DNA of 64,000 nucleotides from Candidatus Sysuiplasma jiujiangense (GCA_019721075.1 JAHEAD010000002.1:152949-216948); one strand, 5' to 3'. Numbered from the stretch's first letter, positions 5,981 to 35,557 are shown. Numbers and translations: made by a program. The notes: generated from the sequence alone by a model not told the origin.

Positions 5981-6861
5981 TGACTGCAGCAGAGAACTTC
6001 GTGAAAATGGAAATGCAGGGGGACGGCATCCAGGGTATTCCGGGAGGCATCACTCAGGCGATCAAGATTGCAAAGTACGAGATGCTCAATTATATCAGAT
6101 CGAGACGCTTCTATGTGCTCCTCCTCATCGATTTGATAATAGGCGGCCTGCTCACAGTCATCGTCGGATACTACCGGCCCTCGTCCGTTCTGGCCAGCAC
6201 ACTTTCATTCTATTCCACATGGTGGGGAAGCATCATCGGTTTCCTCGTAGTGCTCTCCTGCATATTCTTCGGCGGCGACGCAATCTCCGGTGAATTTCAG
6301 AACAGGACCGGCTACTTCCTGATCGGCAATCCGATCAGAAGGTCATCCGTCTACACAGGCAAATTTATCGGTGCGCTACTCTCAGCCCTTGTTGTTGTCT
6401 TCCTATACTTCTTCATCGCGCTTGCGAATGGCATCTACTACTTCGGAGCATCTGTCCCGTCGCAGCTCATCGAATCGCTTCTTTTCTCGCTCGTGTATCT
6501 CCTGTCGGTCATGGGATTCACATTTTTTTTCAGCTCCCTTTTCAGGAGTTCGGTCACCTCAGTCATACTCACAGCAATCCTCTTCCTGTTTGTATTCTCA
6601 ACAGTGCAGACATTCCTCAGCCTGTTTGTCGGCATCGAGCCGTGGTTTCTTATCAGCTACGGTGCAGGCATAATTTCAGCCGTATTTACAGTTCCATATC
6701 CCACACACAGTTCCAAATCTGTCAGCAGATTCGGGCTGCACCTGTCGTCGGTGACCACGTATACGCCGACCATTGTTGAAGGGCTGCTCATCATGGTTGC
6801 ATACTTCATCATATCCGTTCTGCTAGGACTCCTGCTCTTTGAAAGAAGCGAATTCAGATGA
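5980..6861 (+). CDS. ABC-2 family permease
   Basis: Membrane protein of 293 residues with six hydrophobic segments, after a soluble N-terminus of about 35 residues. The block GGDAISGEFQNRTGY, an ISGEFxxxT motif between TM2 and TM3, is typical of ABC-2 permeases of the NatB/YhfK-like type. The start codon overlaps the stop of its ATPase by one base. A possible shorter start lies at Met8. Together with the ATPase it makes the second exporter beside the PadR-controlled one. Confidence 0.88.
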   Translation: MTAAENFVKMEMQGDGIQGIPGGITQAIKIAKYEMLNYIRSRRFYVLLLIDLIIGGLLTVIVGYYRPSSVLASTLSFYSTWWGSIIGFLVVLSCIFFGGDAISGEFQNRTGYFLIGNPIRRSSVYTGKFIGALLSALVVVFLYFFIALANGIYYFGASVPSQLIESLLFSLVYLLSVMGFTFFFSSLFRSSVTSVILTAILFLFVFSTVQTFLSLFVGIEPWFLISYGAGIISAVFTVPYPTHSSKSVSRFGLHLSSVTTYTPTIVEGLLIMVAYFIISVLLGLLLFERSEFR

Positions 6862-6949
6862 ATTGATTCGACGGTATCACGGCATAGCCAATGATCCGCA
6901 AACCTTCATGAGCGTCATTAAAACAGAACGCCGTATTTCTTCCAAAAGG

Positions 6950-6957
6950 TTAATAAA
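6950..6957 (+). promoter_or_regulatory. TATA-like box of the LSm-L37e-purF cluster
   Basis: TTAATAAA lies about 25 bp before the LSm ATG at 6979, the spacing expected for a leaderless archaeal transcript. No Shine-Dalgarno is visible before the ATG. Confidence 0.5.
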
Positions 6958-6978
6958 CAACAGCAAAATGTGACATCC

Positions 6979-7203
6979 ATGGCAACTGCTGTCAAGCCGC
7001 TTGCGTTCCTCGCACAGGCGATGGAATCGCATGTCATGGTTGAGCTGAAAGGCAACCGGGGATACAGGGGCATACTGGACGGCTACGATCCTCATATGAA
7101 CATAGTGCTAAAGAACGCGGAAGAGATAGTAAACAACGAAGTTGTCCGAAAACTGGAAGTTGCCATAGTCAGAGGCGACAACGTTATATACATATCACCC
7201 TGA
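6979..7203 (+). CDS. LSm (Sm-like archaeal) RNA-binding protein
   Basis: Small Sm-fold protein of 74 residues expected to form a homoheptameric ring that binds U-rich RNA. Sm1 is visible as VMVELKGNRGYRGILDGYD followed by MNIVL, and Sm2 as IVRGDNVIYIS. The ATG at 6979 is preferred over an upstream GTG at 6970 because it gives the normal N-terminus. L37e follows after ten bases and purF after that, a gene order shared by many euryarchaea. Confidence 0.93.
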   Translation: MATAVKPLAFLAQAMESHVMVELKGNRGYRGILDGYDPHMNIVLKNAEEIVNNEVVRKLEVAIVRGDNVIYISP

Positions 7204-7213
7204 GGGATGATTT

Positions 7214-7378
7214 ATGGGCAAGGGAACACCGTCACAGGGAAAGAGAAGCAGAAACAAGTCACACATAATCTGCAGAAGATGCGGAAGACATTCATACAAC
7301 ATAAAGGGCTTCTGCTCCTCATGCGGTTACGGAAAGAGCGCTAAGGCCAGAAACTATTCATGGGCTAAAGCCCATTAG
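7214..7378 (+). CDS. rpl37e: 50S ribosomal protein L37e
   Basis: A 54-residue basic zinc-ribbon protein of the large subunit, read directly from the DNA. It begins [11 protein letters not shown] and carries two CxxC knuckles, C20/C23 and C34/C37, separated by HSYNIKGF, exactly the L37e layout. Length is normal for the family (about 55-65). It lies between LSm and purF with ten- and twelve-base gaps, so all three are probably co-transcribed. Its size makes it easy for gene finders to miss. Confidence 0.95.
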
Positions 7379-7390
7379 CGAAGTGAAAAA

Positions 7391-8827
7391 ATGAATTCCG
7401 ACAAAGCCGGACACAAGTGTGGCGTTGTCGGCATGATCTCAAGCAATAATGTTGCCCCCGCTCTTTATGCGAGCCTCAGGATAATGCAGCACAGAGGGCA
7501 GAACAGTGCGGGTATCGCGGTCAGCTCATCCGAGGAAACAATCAAGGCGGTCAAGGGTCTCGGCCTTGCCCACGAGGTTTTCAATGGCGAAAATATTTCG
7601 TCGTTGACATCGCATTCCGGCATAGGGCATGTGCGCTATCCCACGACGGGAGACGACATGATCGAGAACGTGCAGCCGCTTGTCCTGAGTTCTGCGGTCG
7701 GCGATGTTGCCTTGGGGCATAATGGCGATATTGTCAACTCGAACGTACTGAGGGAGCGTCTGGAGAATGAAGGCTGGGGTTTTTTCTCGACGACGGACAC
7801 CGAACTGGTCCTCCGCCTGATTGTGAACGAACTGAAGGACATGTACGAACCGGCGAGGGCCATCAGGAACGCCCTTAGGCGTGTTGAAGGAGGCTATGCT
7901 TTTACACTGATGATAGGCAGCAGGGTATTCGGCATCAGGGATCCTTTAGGCATACGGCCCCTCGCACTCGGCAGGATCCCGGGCGGCTATGCAATAGCAA
8001 GCGAAAGCGTAGTCTTTGACATGCTTGACGGCGAGCTGATACGCGATTTCTATCCCGGAGAGATAATCGAGCTGACAGACGGGGATTACCTGTCATTTCC
8101 GGCACCTTTGCAGCCCGAGAAGGCAGAGAAGGCAAATTGCATGTTCGAGTACGTCTACTTCGCGAGACCTGACAGTGTAATCGACGGCAAGTCGGTTTTC
8201 GAAGTGAGGCGCAACATAGGCCGCGTACTTGCCAGGGAGAGACCGGCCGACGCGGATGTCATCATACCCGTCCCGGATTCTGGCAGAACCCATGCGATTG
8301 GATTCTGCGAAGTGTCTGGAATTCCTCTTTCTGAGGGGTTGATGAAGAACAGATTCATTGAAAGAACTTTCATTATGCCGGAGCAGAGTGCCAGGGAGAA
8401 TAGCGTCTCGCTGAAGCTGAATCCTCTCAGACCGGTAATCAGGGGAAAGAGAGTTGTGATAATAGACGATAGTATTGTCCGCGGCACAACGATGAAAAAG
8501 ATTGTCCAGATGGTGAGAAAGGCGGGCGCCACTGAAGTGCATGTGAGAATCGGCTGCCCGATGATTGTTGCCCCTTGCTACTACGGTGTTGATATGAAGA
8601 CAAGGGACCAGTTCATAGCCGTGGGCAAGAGCGAGGACGATATTGCAAGGGAAATAACCGCTGACAGCCTCGGCTATCTCAGTATACAGGGTCTTGTGGA
8701 GGCGCTTGGCATAAAGGGTTCCGACCTCTGCCTCGGCTGCCTCACAGCGGAATATCCAACGAAGGTCCCCGGCGAAAGGATGAGATTCCAGAGAAGTCTT
8801 GAAAGCTTTCAGAAAATACAGGCCTGA
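7391..8827 (+). CDS. purF: Amidophosphoribosyltransferase
   Basis: Catalyses the first committed step of purine synthesis: PRPP plus glutamine to phosphoribosylamine. The N-terminal Ntn glutaminase begins at Cys10 (CGVVGM), so nine residues must be removed to expose the nucleophile. The PRPP-binding loop is VVIIDDSIVRGTT. Cysteines in ANCMFEY, GCPMIVAPC and DLCLGC match the four Fe-S ligand positions of the Bacillus-type enzyme, suggesting a 4Fe-4S cluster. Length 478 is normal. Last gene of the LSm-L37e-purF cluster; a PurP-family gene lies at 56285-57442. Confidence 0.96.
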   Translation: MNSDKAGHKCGVVGMISSNNVAPALYASLRIMQHRGQNSAGIAVSSSEETIKAVKGLGLAHEVFNGENISSLTSHSGIGHVRYPTTGDDMIENVQPLVLSSAVGDVALGHNGDIVNSNVLRERLENEGWGFFSTTDTELVLRLIVNELKDMYEPARAIRNALRRVEGGYAFTLMIGSRVFGIRDPLGIRPLALGRIPGGYAIASESVVFDMLDGELIRDFYPGEIIELTDGDYLSFPAPLQPEKAEKANCMFEYVYFARPDSVIDGKSVFEVRRNIGRVLARERPADADVIIPVPDSGRTHAIGFCEVSGIPLSEGLMKNRFIERTFIMPEQSARENSVSLKLNPLRPVIRGKRVVIIDDSIVRGTTMKKIVQMVRKAGATEVHVRIGCPMIVAPCYYGVDMKTRDQFIAVGKSEDDIAREITADSLGYLSIQGLVEALGIKGSDLCLGCLTAEYPTKVPGERMRFQRSLESFQKIQA

Positions 8828-27134: not shown

Positions 27135-28055
27135 ATGACGAAACTTATCGAATGCGTCCCCAATTTCAGCGAAGGGAGAAGGAAGGATGTTGTCTCACTG
27201 ATCGAACAGGCAATCAGGACAGTACCGAATATCATGTTCATGGGTTCGGAAATGGATGCCTCACACAACAGGAGTGTCCTGACATTTGTTGGACCGCCGG
27301 ACAGCGTTGCGGAGGCTGCGTTCAGGGCATGCAAGAAGGCCTCCGAACTTATTGATATGAACATGCACAGGGGAGAGCATCCGAGAATCGGCGCCACTGA
27401 TGTCATACCATTCATACCGGTCTCGGACTCCAGCATAGGAGAATGCATCGAACTTTCGGAGAAGGTGGCCATGAGAATAGCAGAAGAACTCGGCATACCC
27501 ACATACCTGTATGAAAGTGCCGCCCGGAGGCCAAACAGGAAGAACCTTTCAGACATAAGAAAGGGGGAATACGAGGGCCTGAAGGAGGCAGTTCTCACTG
27601 ACGAGTCCAGAAGACCGGATTTCGGCGGCCCGGAGCTACACCCTACGGCAGGTGCCACAGTAGTCGGTGCCAGGCCGGTTCTTGTTGCATACAACGTCTA
27701 TCTCAAGACACCGGACGTTGCTGTTGCGAAGAGGATAGCCGGCAAAGTAAGGGAAAGGAACGGCGGCCTTCCCGGCGTGAAGGCTCTCGGCTTCTTCATA
27801 TCCGAGAGGAATATGGCGCAGGTCTCGATGAATCTCACGGACCTGACAAAGACATCCACGCTCGCTGCATATGAGAAGGTCAGCGAGGAGGCGGTGCTGG
27901 AAGGGGTGGAGGTCGCAGGGAGCGAAATTGTCGGTCTGCTGCCGATCGCAGAGATTGCGGGTGTTGCAGTGCAAAAACTTAAGCTGATGGACTTCAATAG
28001 AAGCCAGATAATCGAGTCAAGGCTGCTTGACCTGATACTTGAAAAAGGTGAATAG
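27135..28055 (+). CDS. ftcD: Glutamate formimidoyltransferase
   Basis: Transfers the formimino group of N-formimino-glutamate to tetrahydrofolate or a related carrier, the last step of one histidine degradation route. The 306 residues cover the two formiminotransferase subdomains: IECVPNFSEGR at the N-terminus, GSEMDASHNRSV, MNMHRGEHPRIGATDV and HPTAGATVVGAR. In animals this domain is fused to a cyclodeaminase; here that domain is the separate next gene, two bases away. Links functionally to hutH at 14387. Confidence 0.95.
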   Translation: MTKLIECVPNFSEGRRKDVVSLIEQAIRTVPNIMFMGSEMDASHNRSVLTFVGPPDSVAEAAFRACKKASELIDMNMHRGEHPRIGATDVIPFIPVSDSSIGECIELSEKVAMRIAEELGIPTYLYESAARRPNRKNLSDIRKGEYEGLKEAVLTDESRRPDFGGPELHPTAGATVVGARPVLVAYNVYLKTPDVAVAKRIAGKVRERNGGLPGVKALGFFISERNMAQVSMNLTDLTKTSTLAAYEKVSEEAVLEGVEVAGSEIVGLLPIAEIAGVAVQKLKLMDFNRSQIIESRLLDLILEKGE

Positions 28056-28057
28056 CA

Positions 28058-28654
28058 TTGTCATACTCTGAAAAGAAGATAGCGGAATTCGTAAAGGAAC
28101 TCTCATCACCCTCGCCGACACCAGGAGGCGGTTCCGCATCCGCGATAGTCGCATCGGCAGCTGCGGCGCTGATTGTCATGGACTGCAATCTGACACTGGG
28201 AAAGGAGAAGTACGAGGCCATACAGGATAATGTCTCCGAAATCAGGCGCAGGAGCCAGAAGCTCTGCGGCCTGCTCCTGAAGCTTGCAGACCGTGATGCA
28301 AAAAGTTTTGATGCCGTAATGAAGGCGGTAGGGCTGCCGAAGGACACGGAGCTGAGAAAGCTGAAGAGGTATGAGCGGATCCAGAGCGCCCTCAAGCATG
28401 CCACAGAAGTACCGCTTGAGATAATGCAGCTCTGTTCAGAACTCCAGAAGATGGCCAACTACATGGCCGAAAAGGGCAACAGGAACAGCAGATCCGATGC
28501 GATGGTCGGCTGCATATTTGCCGAAGCGGCACTGAAAGGGGCCTACGAGAACCTGGAGATCAATCTTGAATCGATCAAGGACACGGCCTTTGTCGATGAA
28601 ATGAACAGGAAGGTGGCGGAACTGCTCCGATCGCCGCCTCAGTACGTGCGGTAG
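28058..28654 (+). CDS. Formimino-tetrahydrofolate cyclodeaminase-like protein
   Basis: A 198-residue all-helical FTCD C-terminal domain, predicted to convert 5-formimino-tetrahydrofolate to 5,10-methenyl-tetrahydrofolate and ammonia. The hallmark TPGGGSASAIVASAAAAL lies at residues 20-40, and an ADRDAKSFDAVMKA block follows. The start is a TTG at 28058, two bases after the ftcD stop; no in-frame ATG precedes the conserved region. It may also be annotated as methenyl-THF cyclohydrolase, a family it shares, but adjacency to ftcD favours the deaminase. Confidence 0.92.
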   Translation: MSYSEKKIAEFVKELSSPSPTPGGGSASAIVASAAAALIVMDCNLTLGKEKYEAIQDNVSEIRRRSQKLCGLLLKLADRDAKSFDAVMKAVGLPKDTELRKLKRYERIQSALKHATEVPLEIMQLCSELQKMANYMAEKGNRNSRSDAMVGCIFAEAALKGAYENLEINLESIKDTAFVDEMNRKVAELLRSPPQYVR

Positions 28655-29355: not shown

Positions 29356-32300
29356 TCACTTGTGCGCTATAGCCAGTCCGCATTCGCATCTGTCCGTCCT
29401 TGTCGAACAGACATCGTGGTACTCCCTGCCGCACCTGCACTCGTAAACTTCCATCCCCTCCCGTATCCTGCCCCTGCAGTACTGGCAGATACGTACAGCC
29501 TGAATGCTCCCTTTATCCATTCTGAACAGCTTGACGGTGACACTTTCGCCTTCGTCCAGGAGGTTTTTCGACCTGACCTCGACATTTACTTCGCCCGTTG
29601 CCCCTGACGAAATACCTATTCTCCTTTCCTGTCCGGGTTTGAGATTTCCAATGGTCTCGTTCATCCTGAATGTGCTGCCGCTGACGGTCGAGGTGACCTG
29701 GAGCGCAACTGCCTTCCCTGCATTAACAATCCTGACCGAAGCACCGCCCGCCTCATTCGCAGCCCGGATCTTGAGACGCGGAATCAGCGACTGCCTTGTT
29801 CTTTTCAGCTCCTCAAGTATCAGTGTTGCCTGTGCTGCCGAACTGTCCGGCAGGTCGGCATAAATTGCATTCAGCCTGCCATCAATATTTCTGAGATTCA
29901 CACCTGCATTGCGCAGCTCCCTGGAAATGCGCGCGATTTCGTCCTTCAATGGAGCCAGAGCCTTAAAAATCTCGGCCTTGCGGGCCGCATTCTCCCTGGT
30001 CTTCCGGAGATATGATATTGCCTCTTCATACCTCTGCTCTGAGACTAGCTCTTCTATTTTCCGATCTGCCTCAAGTCTGAGATCGTCCGGATAGCCAATG
30101 CCGTCCACAGCCCTCGACAGCGCCCCCTGAAGGGTCTCTATCATGACAAATGAGATATCCTTCAGCGCCGGACCGCTTATCGAGAGGGCATCAAGCATGT
30201 GACCTTCCATCATATTCTTCCTGGCCTGCTCCACCATACCCGGCCTGAATTCGATTCCGAGCTCCTCAGCTGCGGCAGTGGCCTTCTCAAGCCCGTTGAG
30301 GGCTGATACGCTTTCAGCCTGCAGCTTTTCCGAAGATGCTGCGTCAATTGAGGAAAGCAGCGAGAAAGCGTCTGATGTTCTGCCTTCCCTCAGGAATTCC
30401 CTGGCTCTCTGCAGGTCGTCAAACCAGCCCTTTTCTGAGACGCCTGCCTCGTTGTAGCTCTGAAGCCTCTTCTCGGTTTCGTCAACCCTTTCCCTGAGCA
30501 GCCTGACTTCAGACAGCATATCGTCCAGTATCTGCTCAATCCTGATCCCCTTCTCTATGACTTCACGGTATTTCTTTGCCGAAAGAAGGGATCTTATGGA
30601 TTCTGTCTCCTCCTTCAGGCTCTTTATCTCTACGCCTTGTTTCGCCGCCGATTCTATTTTTTCATTTGAAATATCAAGGGTGCGTTCTGCCATTTCCTTC
30701 TGGAGTTTCAGCCTGTCGTTCAGGTCCTTGATTTCAAGAAGGCCATCGATTGCGTTTTCGCTTCCCTGCTGGATTGCATCTGCAATTACGTCTATTTTCT
30801 TCCTTATCTCGGTCAGCCTGTCCTCAGAAATCAGCGACGTGACGGAAGCGGAATAGCGTTTCAGGAGTCCGGTACCGGAGGTTTTCAGCGACATGATGCA
30901 TATCTCGGTGCATTTCTGGGCTGTCTGCAGCGAGAGCAGATGCTGTTCATTGCTCAGCAGTGTCTTGGACTGCCTGAGCATTCCGATTGCACTGCCGTCT
31001 ATTATTCCGAGTTCGTCGAGCTTCTCGACAAAATTCTCCGCCTTACTGATGGCGTTTGCAGTCTCGGTCACCGCATTACGCGAGAAATTTAGTTCCTTGT
31101 CTGCAAGAGAGATACTGCTGAACGCCTGTTCATACTGCCCCCTGGCCAGAAGTTCTCTTGCCCTGTCGAGTCTCGATTCCACGAGCTTTACGTCTACGCC
31201 CTCCATTTCGGCCCTTGCGCTCTCCGCCGAGACCGATTTGACAGCACTTTCTATGGCATTCTGAATCACCGATTCAATATCGGCGGTTGCCTTTCTGCTG
31301 GCCAGAAGTGCGTCGTAATAGTTTCTTTCGCGCATGAGATTGCTGATGCTCACCCTCGTGTCTTCGAATTCCTGCACATCCAGGGAAAGGGAGCCCGCAA
31401 GCTGAATCAACCCTTTGAGTCTGATTATTTCCTTCGGTGCGAGAACGGATGACATTCCCCTGTCCTCCATCTCGAGAGCTTCCGATATTGCAGCGCTTGC
31501 TGAGAGATAATCGAAATGCTTAAGAGCGCTTCTTGCCGAGTTAAGCCGATCTTCCAGCCCTTCGATTGATAAATTGAGCTTCTTCGACTCCTGATACTGC
31601 CTTTCGGCCTTCTCCAGCTTTTCGGCAATCTCATCAACATGGCGAAGTTTTCCCTGTATCTCATCGTTCGCAAGGGAAACCATCCTGTTGGCCGTCTCGA
31701 AGTCCTCGAATTTGAGCGCGGCTCTTGCCCTTCCTATCAGGTTGTAGCCGTATCCTATTTCGATCTTCTTTCTCCTTGCAGTCGAAACCATTGCCATCAG
31801 ATCCGACATGACTTTGGAAAAGTAATCGGCGATAAGGCCGTAAATTATGTCGTGCGCCTCGCCTGCAGTTTTCAGGGCACCCTCCAGATCAATCGCCAAC
31901 TGTCTTTCCGCAGATTCCAGCATTGTGGTCGCCGATTTGACTGCAAGATTCGGGAAGATGGAGAGCAGGCGCCTCGATCTCTGTATAAGCGACTGCACCC
32001 TGAATACATCACCATTGCCTGACCAGTCCACAATATCCTTCGCAGTGCAGGCAGATCTGTAGTAGCTGTGATCCGCCTGGAGTTGTTTGGCCTCCTCCAC
32101 CAGTTTTCCGAGTCTCTCCTTCATGTTGCCGGTCGCCTGCTCGGTGCACTTTTTTGCTCTTTCCAGCCAGCTGTTGTTCATCTGCAGCAGCCTTGCCTCA
32201 ATCTCGGTGTCCATCCTGTTGGTAATCTCAATGCATTTGCTGTACTCTGAATTCCTGACAAATGAAACAGCGTTTTCCAGCTGCTCGTTCAGTTCGAGCG

Positions 32301-33756
32301 TTTCTGCGCCGAGATATTCGAGTGCTGAAATCTTCCTGTCGAGTGCGTCAATCTGGCTCGTGGAAAATGTCTCCAGCATCTGGTGCATGCTCTTGAGGAG
32401 GGATGTGGACGCTTCGATAAATTCTTCAAACTTCTTTTCCTCAAACTTGCGCTTTGCGTCGGCATACTTGATGCCTATGTCCACCGAATTGCTTATAAGG
32501 GATATGAGAACAGAATATTCATTTTCCATTTTTGAGAGAAGCTCATCGGCGCGGTTCATGCGCTCCGAAAGCTCTTTGGACTCCTCATTTGCAAGTTCGG
32601 CCATCCTGACCGCTTCCTCAAATCTTCTTTTCTTTACGAGCTCCCTCACCTCATTCAGCCTCTGGTTTATGCCGGTGAGATCGGCTCCTCTTTTCATCGC
32701 CTCTGCAATATACTTCCTGCTGTTGAATAAGACCCTGGCAATGTAGTCATATTTCGCCTTCTCGAATTCTGCTTCGAACGACTTCAGCGAGGAATAGGCT
32801 TTTTCAAAATTGCCTTCTGAAAGGAGTCGCTCGATTTCCTTGATCTTCAGAGACGACGACGATGCAACAGCCTCGTTGAGCGTGCTGTTTGAAAGCTCGC
32901 TCCGGATGGTTTTTATGTTTGCCTCGAAAGCCTTCCTCAGCCTCTGGTCCACATCCCTCCGCAGGGACAGAAGTAGAGACTCTAACTCACCAAATTTCTG
33001 TTCCGGGGGGAGTGCCTGGATTGATGCAAGACGGTCTTTCATCGATGATGTGCCAAGACCGAACAGACGCGATATCTCAATTCTGGCGGATATATCCTTG
33101 ATCTGCGCATCTGCGTTCTTCCTGAACTGCGAGACTATCGAAACGCCTGCCTCCTCGAGCAGCCGGAACGCATTTTCATAATTCCCGGAACTCATTTCAT
33201 TCCTGGCGCTGGAAAGCAGGCTATCGACACCTTCAATTGCAAGGCCGTGCGACTTTGCCTCCACTATCGTTCTCTGGACTTTAGAAAATTCATTGGAATA
33301 CAGTTCGGATAAATTCTTTTCCTCCCTCGACCATACCTCTGTAATTGCTGCGTCCGCACTCTCGTACTCCTTTCTTGCAAGGAGCATGCGCACCTGCTCA
33401 ATGTTCTCGCCGACCATGCCGATGTTTACCCCCTTCGAGCGGAGGAATTCAAGGATTCTTGCAGTTGAATCTATCCTTGAACTGAATATCTTCTGAAGTT
33501 CCTCGTTGAGGCCGTCTATCGCAACGGAGGCGGCAGAGATGCATTCCCTGTACTCCCTTGCGTTGAAACTGACTTCAGCCTTCTTTGAATTCTCCTGGAA
33601 GTCCTTTGAGGAAAATCCGATTTTTTCGCAGAGCAGCGCAAGTGAGGACAGCTCCCTCATCTTGGCCTCGGCGTCCTCCTTCTCCTGGGCTATTTCCTTC
33701 GCCTTGTCGGCAAGCTGCTTGCCGAGTTTCATGTTGCCGAAATAGTTTCCTGTCAA
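29356..33756 (-). CDS. Giant helical-repeat protein with C-terminal RING/PHD-like zinc finger
   Basis: A 1466-residue, highly charged, almost entirely helical protein. About a dozen degenerate units of roughly 90-110 residues recur, each with a helix ending in a pattern like (A/L)-x-x-G-x-Y/F-E-x-A followed by an acidic helix (for example ARKEYESADAAI, SSGNYENAFRLL, ARGQYEQAFSSI, SEQRYEEAISYL). Near 1330-1415 is a beta-rich domain (VRIVNAGKAVALQVT...RRIGISSG) of CARDB-like look. The end holds eight metal ligands: C1424, C1427, C1440, C1442, H1447, C1450, C1457, C1459, a C4HC3 order as in RING-CH/PHD fingers. No signal peptide or TM. The start is TTG 33756, about 22 bp below a TATATATA; ATG 33732 is possible. 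Function unknown; the repeats suggest a scaffold. Confidence 0.85.
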   Translation of the reverse strand: MTGNYFGNMKLGKQLADKAKEIAQEKEDAEAKMRELSSLALLCEKIGFSSKDFQENSKKAEVSFNAREYRECISAASVAIDGLNEELQKIFSSRIDSTARILEFLRSKGVNIGMVGENIEQVRMLLARKEYESADAAITEVWSREEKNLSELYSNEFSKVQRTIVEAKSHGLAIEGVDSLLSSARNEMSSGNYENAFRLLEEAGVSIVSQFRKNADAQIKDISARIEISRLFGLGTSSMKDRLASIQALPPEQKFGELESLLLSLRRDVDQRLRKAFEANIKTIRSELSNSTLNEAVASSSSLKIKEIERLLSEGNFEKAYSSLKSFEAEFEKAKYDYIARVLFNSRKYIAEAMKRGADLTGINQRLNEVRELVKKRRFEEAVRMAELANEESKELSERMNRADELLSKMENEYSVLISLISNSVDIGIKYADAKRKFEEKKFEEFIEASTSLLKSMHQMLETFSTSQIDALDRKISALEYLGAETLELNEQLENAVSFVRNSEYSKCIEITNRMDTEIEARLLQMNNSWLERAKKCTEQATGNMKERLGKLVEEAKQLQADHSYYRSACTAKDIVDWSGNGDVFRVQSLIQRSRRLLSIFPNLAVKSATTMLESAERQLAIDLEGALKTAGEAHDIIYGLIADYFSKVMSDLMAMVSTARRKKIEIGYGYNLIGRARAALKFEDFETANRMVSLANDEIQGKLRHVDEIAEKLEKAERQYQESKKLNLSIEGLEDRLNSARSALKHFDYLSASAAISEALEMEDRGMSSVLAPKEIIRLKGLIQLAGSLSLDVQEFEDTRVSISNLMRERNYYDALLASRKATADIESVIQNAIESAVKSVSAESARAEMEGVDVKLVESRLDRARELLARGQYEQAFSSISLADKELNFSRNAVTETANAISKAENFVEKLDELGIIDGSAIGMLRQSKTLLSNEQHLLSLQTAQKCTEICIMSLKTSGTGLLKRYSASVTSLISEDRLTEIRKKIDVIADAIQQGSENAIDGLLEIKDLNDRLKLQKEMAERTLDISNEKIESAAKQGVEIKSLKEETESIRSLLSAKKYREVIEKGIRIEQILDDMLSEVRLLRERVDETEKRLQSYNEAGVSEKGWFDDLQRAREFLREGRTSDAFSLLSSIDAASSEKLQAESVSALNGLEKATAAAEELGIEFRPGMVEQARKNMMEGHMLDALSISGPALKDISFVMIETLQGALSRAVDGIGYPDDLRLEADRKIEELVSEQRYEEAISYLRKTRENAARKAEIFKALAPLKDEIARISRELRNAGVNLRNIDGRLNAIYADLPDSSAAQATLILEELKRTRQSLIPRLKIRAANEAGGASVRIVNAGKAVALQVTSTVSGSTFRMNETIGNLKPGQERRIGISSGATGEVNVEVRSKNLLDEGESVTVKLFRMDKGSIQAVRICQYCRGRIREGMEVYECRCGREYHDVCSTRTDRCECGLAIAHK

Positions 33757-33977
33757 CTGGGCTTCACCGGCGTATATATATCATAATGAGTCAGCACAAC
33801 AGCTCGGATTTCCGTTCATTCCGTATAAATATAATGACGTAGTTACGCCGCCTGATTTTCAGCCAGCACTGCCTTTCGGGACGCAGGTGCTGGGCTGACT
33901 GCCGAAACTGCGTGATCCCGTATGGCTTCCAGGCTTCCTGGAGCGAGACATGTTCCGTCGCCGCAGAGGCTGCTGAC

Positions 33978-34859
33978 ATGTGGAAAAGATTATTCAACCG
34001 AAGCGTGATACCGGAGCCTATGGGATTGGATGCACTTGGATTGAGGATGCCTACGGGCGTGTCTGATTTTGACTCCATAATAGACGGCGGACTTCCTGCC
34101 GGTTCCGTTGTTCTTCTGCTTGGAGACGTAGGAAGCGGTTTCGTTGAATTTGCATACACATCCGCCGCCAAAATTTCGCTGGCAATGGAGAGACCTGCAT
34201 CGATGAGCTATCTTATGGGTGACAGAGCTGCCGCTGGCAGGCTGCCGGAAAACATTCATTACGTCACTTTCTTCAAACCCAGGGAGGAAATACTTCAGGA
34301 AATATTGTTTTCATTCAACGAGGAGTTCCACGGGGCATTTGAAAAGAACGTGAAATTCACTGACTTCTCTGAGTATTATTTTGAGAAGTCAGTGGTGCCT
34401 GCATCGTGGGTGGACAGGCAGGGAGGCCTGCTGAGAAAAGGCTCTTCCTCGCTCATAAACTCGATTGTCGATTTTCTTGACAGGCAGGCGCAGGGCAGCT
34501 TCATAATCATTGATTCACTGACAGATCTTCTCCTGAGCGAAAGCATAGAACTGATGGATATTGTCGCGATGCTCCGCGGGATACAGCGCATGTCAAAAAA
34601 ATGGAAAGGCGTCATCTACCTCCTGCTGACTGAGGGCATACTTGAGAAGAGGAAGGAGCAGATGATAATAGACAGCGTTGACGGCGTGTTTGTCTTCGAA
34701 TGGAGCAAGAATACCAGCAGCAGCAAGAGGCAGCGATACATCTACATATCGAAGTTTGTGAGCCTGATGCCGCATCTCGACGAGCAGAGAGTGGCCAGAT
34801 TTGCAACAACTCTGACATCCCAGAGCGGCCTCGTGGTAATAGATACGGAGAGGATATGA
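33978..34859 (+). CDS. KaiC-like protein with inactivated P-loop
   Basis: RecA/KaiC-fold protein of 293 residues. It starts like a KaiC domain (MPTGVSDFDSIIDGGLPAGSVVLLLGD), but Walker A reads GDVGSGFV: Phe and Val occupy the Lys and Ser/Thr positions (codon at 34140-34142). A hydrophobic Walker B-like strand IIIDSLTDLL remains. It is therefore unlikely to hydrolyse ATP alone. The downstream intact KaiC protein overlaps by four bases, suggesting an obligate heteromer of inactive and active subunits. I chose ATG 33978; the 22 residues an upstream GTG would add look non-coding. Confidence 0.82.
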   Translation: MWKRLFNRSVIPEPMGLDALGLRMPTGVSDFDSIIDGGLPAGSVVLLLGDVGSGFVEFAYTSAAKISLAMERPASMSYLMGDRAAAGRLPENIHYVTFFKPREEILQEILFSFNEEFHGAFEKNVKFTDFSEYYFEKSVVPASWVDRQGGLLRKGSSSLINSIVDFLDRQAQGSFIIIDSLTDLLLSESIELMDIVAMLRGIQRMSKKWKGVIYLLLTEGILEKRKEQMIIDSVDGVFVFEWSKNTSSSKRQRYIYISKFVSLMPHLDEQRVARFATTLTSQSGLVVIDTERI

Positions 34860-35557
34860 TGGCCTCCGTACAGCCCACAGGGATAGAGGGACTGGATGAC
34901 ATGCTGGGAGGGGGCATACCTGGAGGTGCCATTGTTGTCATACTGGGGTCATTCGGCACGGGCAAGACGACAATGAGCATCCAGTATCTTCTGAAGGGAC
35001 TGAGTTCGGGCGAAAAATGCATTTACATTTCTCTTGAGGAGGACGAGAAATCAATTGTAAAGAACGCTCTGACCTATGGATGGAGACTCGGCGATTACAC
35101 CGGTAACGGAATGCTCTCGATAATCAAGCTTGAGCCGTCAGATGCCAAAACAACGCTTGAACGAGTGAAGAGCGAATTTCCCCGGTTCATCCGTGAATTC
35201 GGCGCAAGCAGGGTCGTAATAGACTCGATCTCGCTGCTGACCATGCTTTACGAGAGCGAATCGGAGAAGAGAACAGGCCTTTTCAACCTGTGCGACCTGA
35301 TAAGGCAGTCCGGTGCAGGCGCTCTTCTGACTTCGGAAGTAAATGAAAACCACCCCTCTTCCTCCAGAGACGGAATGGTGGAATATACGGCGGACGGCGT
35401 AATACTTCTCCAGAGCACGGAGTCGAAGGACGCTTCTGAGCAACAGCTTACGCTCAGGGTCGTAAAAATGAGGGGTGTGGCCCATTCGAGGAGGATAAAG
35501 CCTTACAGCATTACGAGAGAAGGGATAGTTGTTCATTCCGGATCGGAGATATTCTGA
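34856..35557 (+). CDS. KaiC-like RecA-superfamily ATPase
   Basis: Single-domain KaiC protein of 233 residues with intact Walker A GSFGTGKTT (about residues 28-36), a catalytic YISLEEDEKS glutamate pair and Walker B VVIDSISLL, ending in KMRGVAHSRRIKPYSI, a typical KaiC finish. The start ATG at 34856 overlaps the stop of the degenerate partner (ATGA), so an upstream frame to 34700 is not coding. Archaeal single-domain KaiC proteins are implicated in signalling and in regulating taxis or transcription; the role here is unknown. Confidence 0.92.
   Translation: MMASVQPTGIEGLDDMLGGGIPGGAIVVILGSFGTGKTTMSIQYLLKGLSSGEKCIYISLEEDEKSIVKNALTYGWRLGDYTGNGMLSIIKLEPSDAKTTLERVKSEFPRFIREFGASRVVIDSISLLTMLYESESEKRTGLFNLCDLIRQSGAGALLTSEVNENHPSSSRDGMVEYTADGVILLQSTESKDASEQQLTLRVVKMRGVAHSRRIKPYSITREGIVVHSGSEIF

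Follow-up and report, generated by a model that had tools for sequence, protein, structure and literature searches.

A gene for a predicted rod protein

The window analysed here is a stretch of 64,000 nucleotides from Candidatus Sysuiplasma jiujiangense (GCA_019721075.1 JAHEAD010000002.1:152949-216948), and its minus strand carries a large gene whose product, referred to below as the rod protein, is predicted to consist of a long helical region, a beta-sandwich and a C-terminal zinc finger (Table 1). An earlier reading made from the sequence by itself (the sequence-only reading) had described one open frame at 29356-33756 with 1466 residues. A frame check of the window confirms a single uninterrupted open reading frame (ORF) over this interval, although the product is probably shorter: six relatives from the rod protein's own family have the invariant N-terminus MKLGKQL, and because they begin at this sequence we place the start at ATG 33732, which gives a protein of 1458 amino acids (aa).

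The gene is single-copy in a search of the 2.29-Mb genome, a first scan of the genome contigs with the C-terminal 151 aa as query gave no match, and no family in Pfam or NCBIfam covers the protein. A profile of the C-terminal 250 aa finds matches, a few of them weak or partial, in 148 of 300 sampled genomes of the class Thermoplasmata, the orthologues ranging from 1330 to 1640 aa. Judged by these matches the rod is a protein family spread across the class, and the earlier suggestion that its architecture is unusual for an archaeon fails at class level, with orthologues in about half of the sampled genomes. The orthologues of three families (f20, f30, f32) and part of a fourth (f21) end after the beta-sandwich and are finger-less; as they retain the rod, the sandwich and the smc neighbourhood described below (L143), it is the rod and not the finger that appears to be the constant part. 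There are also paralogues of 1900-2400 aa in which the helical plus beta unit occurs twice and the finger part of the profile is unmatched (G020:C3, G030:C36, G075:C37 and others). Two further proteins (L056 and L057), first aligned as 'giants', are kelch/membrane proteins that have only the finger in common with the rods.

Table 1. Coordinates of the rod gene, its predicted domains and the adjoining KaiC-like genes
Feature	Coordinates	Strand	Remarks
Rod protein coding sequence	29356..33732	-	1458 aa from an ATG; the TTG listed as start (33756) lengthens it by 8 residues
Helical rod	29803..33624	-	Residues ~37-1310; 62-64 aa repeats, short helix + long helix; repeat HMM (hidden Markov model), AlphaFold2
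Beta-sandwich (Ig/CARDB-like)	29497..29775	-	Residues ~1320-1412; invariant N1337, G1352; AlphaFold2, Foldseek
C4HC3 Prok-RING_1-like zinc finger	29380..29487	-	C1416-C1451; ligands invariant 29/29; Pfam PF14446
RecA/KaiC-fold protein, degenerate Walker A (GDVGSGFV)	34020..34859	+	Likely ATG 34020 in ORF 33912-34859; PF06745 E 5.8e-9
Second KaiC-like ATPase, intact Walker A (GSFGTGKT)	34856..35557	+	Likely ATG 34856; PF06745 E 1.9e-59; TIGR03880 above cut-off

Helical repeats and the beta-sandwich

An iterated repeat HMM run over 44 proteins puts the repeat spacing at 60-64 aa, a bin with 560 spacings, and the unit at 62-64 aa, with 21 contiguous repeats in the protein at L044 and 15 detected repeats, mostly at multiples of ~62 aa, in the window protein. 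This suggests about 21 repeats per protein and replaces the dozen or so repeats of roughly 100 residues proposed in the sequence-only reading. Elsewhere in the genome, a zinc-ribbon protein (L162:1402-3009(+), G000:C5) has by eye the same ~62-aa helical repeats, which gives the repeat the look of a module used more widely in this genome.

AlphaFold2, with 43 homologues, models residues 640-1204 as ~15-residue and ~40-residue helices that alternate strictly, with a mean predicted local distance difference test score (pLDDT) of 88.7. From this secondary structure we infer three-helix bundles joined by continuous helices, giving a spectrin-like rod. A spectrin repeat by sequence was rejected, the period of 62-64 aa differing from the ~106-aa three-helix unit, and no spectrin match is among the Pfam families listed. 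A TPR solenoid, with its 34-aa two-helix repeat, was rejected on the same period, TPR matches being weak and confined to three of 29 members, and a HEAT solenoid was considered and is unsupported, with no HEAT match. The NCBIfam 'SAXB' match in 22 members was attributed to coiled-coil composition.

Residues 1205-1458 are modelled (pLDDT 90.3) as helices followed by a beta-sandwich of seven or eight strands and then the small finger. Foldseek matches the sandwich to beta domains of the transglutaminase and GH2 types, and five orthologues have CARDB matches. A beta domain ahead of the finger had been noticed earlier and is recovered in this model, at a pLDDT of ~90 for the sandwich; the accompanying idea of a giant scaffold with a binding finger fits the modelled helical rod and sandwich together with the invariance of the finger.

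The zinc finger

Eight correctly ordered metal ligands had been recognised at C1424-C1459, and these stand as C1416-C1451 in the 1458-aa numbering, with the pattern C-x2-C-x12-C-x-C-x4-H-x2-C-x6-C-x-C. A loose 8-ligand pattern run over the window's six-frame ORFs (41,790 aa) matches here and nowhere else. Conservation of the ligands in homologues, on which the earlier claim depended, was checked directly: all eight C4HC3 ligands, together with G1421 and G1435, are invariant in the 29 aligned proteins from 27 genomes, an alignment that includes L056 and L057, where the finger alone is held in common. The pattern common to 60 distinct fingers is C-x2-C-x12-C-x(1,2)-C-x4-H-x2-C-x6-C-x(1,2)-C with near-invariant spacing, and the CxC last knuckle is confined to the window protein's own family. 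In the AlphaFold2 model the finger has short strands and one helix, with good pLDDT.

Pfam PF14446 (Prok-RING_1) is matched by 35 of 36 fingers (best E 2.3e-15), and the finger profile extends to structures of RING-H2 (Arkadia, E ~4e-5) and PHD (Pygopus, ~1.5e-3) type, so that Prok-RING_1 is its nearest match by profile, with RING-H2 and PHD behind it. The window finger shares the C4HC3 ligand order of Prok-RING_1 and differs in its own-family CxC last knuckle and in its score of 15.6 bits, below the gathering cut-off of 29.1. The description of the finger as eukaryote-like was only half right, in that RING-H2 and PHD structures come within reach of the profile but the closest Pfam family is Prok-RING_1.

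It could be argued from the C4HC3 order, the x4 spacing between C4 and H and the Pygopus match that the finger reads a modified chromatin peptide tail in the manner of a PHD finger, the protein as a whole being a chromatin scaffold. In PHD fingers a Trp precedes the last Cys pair and the C6-C7 loop is longer; here this Trp is missing in all 60 fingers and the loop has just 6 aa; moreover the same finger is found on membrane and kelch proteins. We consider this explanation highly improbable.

The finger is, from its distribution, a mobile module in Thermoplasmata. It lies at the presumed cytoplasmic end of kelch surface-type proteins with a transmembrane helix (L056:3577-7281(-) and L057:7043-10750(+)), at the C-terminus of a Na+/H+ exchanger (PF00999; L068:5024-6838(-)), in finger plus zinc-ribbon proteins and inside DUF835 proteins. 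In many families it is followed, after a variable and sometimes long linker, by the C-terminal tail KK(R/K)VALKI (L037-L040, L047-L053, L058, L059), a possible docking motif that the window's family does not have.

A precedent for the arrangement of finger and helical region is the C-terminal RING-like domain of alpha-COP, a treble clef that follows an all-helical region of a large scaffold and has an HHpred match to PF14446 (PMC4678705). By analogy, both proteins would place a RING-like treble clef behind a helical scaffold, notwithstanding that alpha-COP is a COPI coat subunit and that the rod is unrelated to it in sequence.

A ubiquitin-like system in the same genome

The sequence-only reading had found no ubiquitin-like or E1/E2 genes nearby and regarded a ubiquitin role as unsupported. 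There are indeed none near the rod gene, but a complete E1-Ubl-E2-JAMM operon (Ubl, ubiquitin-like protein) lies on contig C4 of the same genome (L102, G000:C4:2500-17000, 6472-8511 (-)), in the order ThiF-type E1 (7e-50), 85-aa Ubl, E2 with HPN motif and catalytic Cys, and JAB/JAMM protease. The Ubl ends in PDPEGGQWQSL, that is, PDPEGG plus a short tail, which by its sequence needs trimming. The arrangement recurs in many families of the class. Family f15 (L121 and L123) contributes another E2 to the class, one that looks more eukaryotic and is accompanied by an E1, a Ubl and a JAMM of its own. In f7 a gene that fuses Ubl and E2 is divergent from the rod gene (L038:4222-4983(-), L039:4711-5394(-), L047:13342-14001(+), L052:6330-7004(+)), with a CDC48_N-like 98-aa gene beside it.

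The presence of E1, Ubl, E2 and JAB protease in one run in this genome raises the possibility that the finger is a RING-type E3 that recruits E2~Ubl from the operon while the rod positions substrates. The f7 gene arrangement and the profile match to RING-H2 E3s are in keeping with this, as are a hydrophobic residue at C1+2 in 48 of 60 fingers and CPxC in 38. However, the canonical set of RING E3 contacts is not matched as a whole, since the E2-contact Trp between C6 and C7 is found in none of the 60 and an Arg or Lys within two residues after C8 in 10. Fingered rods and E2 also show no association across families (9 with both, 11 with rod only, 8 with E2 only and 4 with neither; odds ratio 0.41, Fisher p 0.29), and E2 is present where the rod is absent or finger-less (f6, f20, f30, f32). 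The E2 model PF00179 was undetected in 40 of 40 genomes from 11 fingered-rod families for which a preceding search had given no E2, a search in which the control panel was silent but the same model matched in 32 of 60 relatives. The E2 part of the f7 fusion has lost the catalytic Cys, and in the window's genome the rod and E2 genes are on different contigs. Because fingered rods and E2 do not co-occur across families and the E2-contact Trp is missing throughout, a dedicated E3 role for the rod protein seems unlikely, and we give it a low probability; the earlier doubt about a ubiquitin role is upheld on these grounds despite the E2 system in the organism.

A comparison with an established archaeal ligase is instructive. 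The Caldiarchaeum protein srfp has been shown to be an E3, with I30, W58 and R69 required for activity (PMC5654768). Its host likewise has E1, E2, Ubl and JAMM genes, and its finger too is RING-related; however, srfp is a small RING-H2 protein in a ubiquitin operon, whereas the window finger sits at the end of a 1458-aa rod, has no linkage to the operon and is without the Trp.

Gene neighbourhood

The rod gene follows smc-scpA-scpB on one strand in six families (f14, f18, f21, f23, f24, f27), the window's family not being among them, and matching coordinates indicate the same run in about 15 more f18/f23 genomes; in some of the smc-linked loci one short gene was misread by ORF picking. In f13 an ftsZ-type gene is directly upstream of the rod gene, with a gap of 3-48 bp, in all five genomes with a readable upstream side. 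The window's genome also has a second finger protein, of 234 aa with zinc ribbons (L165:5128-7071 (-), G000:C4), encoded 150 bp upstream of a bona fide FtsZ gene (TIGR00065), and a finger plus zinc-ribbon protein adjoins ftsZ in L060, L062 and L071 as well. The occurrence of two unrelated finger proteins beside ftsZ-type genes is, as far as gene order can tell, the best independent support for a division role.

In the window's family (f1) two KaiC-like genes (34020-35557, +; 4-base overlap) are transcribed away from the rod gene. In f12 this pair has the orientation of the rod gene, and it accompanies the rod gene in L049 as well. A histidine ammonia-lyase gene convergent to the rod gene is retained in about ten families, and a gene for formiminotransferase/cyclodeaminase (FTCD) lies beside the rod gene in the window (27135-28654 (+)), and in L044 and L132-L133, with histidine ammonia-lyase in relatives.

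A proposed role for the rod protein

Considering the repeats, the models and the neighbourhoods together, we propose that about 21 copies of the 62-aa unit build a long, rigid, spectrin-like rod, in which short (15 aa) and long (~40 aa) helices would form three-helix bundles connected by continuous helices, and that this rod is capped by the beta-sandwich and a predicted two-zinc treble-clef finger of RING/PHD type. The rod would span distance while the sandwich and finger dock a partner protein, so that the whole would most likely serve the chromosome-segregation and cell-division machinery as a spacer or scaffold that is itself non-catalytic. The structural and conservation part of this proposal is well supported. 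The function, and with it the docking and any link to SMC, FtsZ or the KaiC-like ATPases, we infer from gene order, and we give the scaffold role about an even chance; it is likelier than a ubiquitin ligase because rod genes adjoin chromosome-folding or division genes in many relatives.

Several observations weigh against this proposal. The rod gene of the window's own family adjoins neither scpB, which is on contig C11, nor ftsZ. Histidine ammonia-lyase and FTCD genes, in convergent orientation, likewise stay close to the rod gene in many families, and for this reason part of the conserved gene order may be ancestral synteny that is slow to decay. The scpB-rod gap of 54-171 bp leaves room for a separate promoter, and there are archaeal ScpA and ScpB pairs that fail to bind each other (PMC7055376). 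Finally, a Foldseek search with the rod model gave no significant match (E 1.9 and worse), its weak list including alpha-catenin, vinculin, EzrA, alpha-actinin and plectin rods.

A competing explanation is that the adjoining KaiC-like ATPases regulate the protein, which would act as a general scaffold in the cytoskeleton or under stress, the smc and ftsZ neighbourhoods being old gene-order remnants that are functionally unlinked. Such a scaffold would agree with neighbours that vary between families, with the persistence of the histidine-lyase gene and with the linkage of the KaiC-like pair in f1 and f12, but it does not readily account for codirectional runs that recur with two different segregation or division modules, nor for the independent tie of the second finger protein to ftsZ. 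We consider it rather unlikely.

Within the segregation and division scaffold that we favour, a more specific form can be envisaged, in which the rod is a class-wide accessory subunit of Smc-ScpA, made of about 21 bundles, that docks Smc-ScpA or FtsZ via its sandwich and finger and is a convergent counterpart of eukaryotic HAWK subunits or of bacterial EzrA; this we offer tentatively, as doubtful. EzrA is an FtsZ regulator, and like the spectrin-type rods alpha-actinin and plectin it has chains of three-helix bundles joined by continuous helices, as we suppose for the rod, which differs from them in its 62-aa rather than ~106-aa unit, in having no membrane anchor and in the poor Foldseek scores given above. 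HAWK subunits of eukaryotic condensin and cohesin are large helical-repeat proteins tied to SMC-kleisin complexes (PMC7055376); they are, however, HEAT solenoids, and the rod is a conjectural member of such a complex. It has been argued that archaeal Smc-ScpA is without a functioning ScpB and that in Thermoplasmatales scpB is located apart from scpA (PMC7055376). In view of this, the contiguous smc-scpA-scpB-rod runs seen in other families of the class are worth following.

Significance

Going by its sequences and gene order, a family of ~1500-residue rods to which neither Pfam nor NCBIfam gives a name has been retained across much of Thermoplasmata, with condensin and tubulin-like genes next to it. 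With the E1-Ubl-E2-JAMM operon present in many families of the class, an archaeal ubiquitin-like system can be tested directly outside Aigarchaeota and Asgard, and the rod family has a bearing on what RING-like fingers did originally, before there were ubiquitin ligases. It also bears on what stands in for the kite subunit of archaeal Smc-ScpA and, if the link to the neighbouring genes is functional, archaea would own a rod scaffold dedicated to chromosome segregation or to division.

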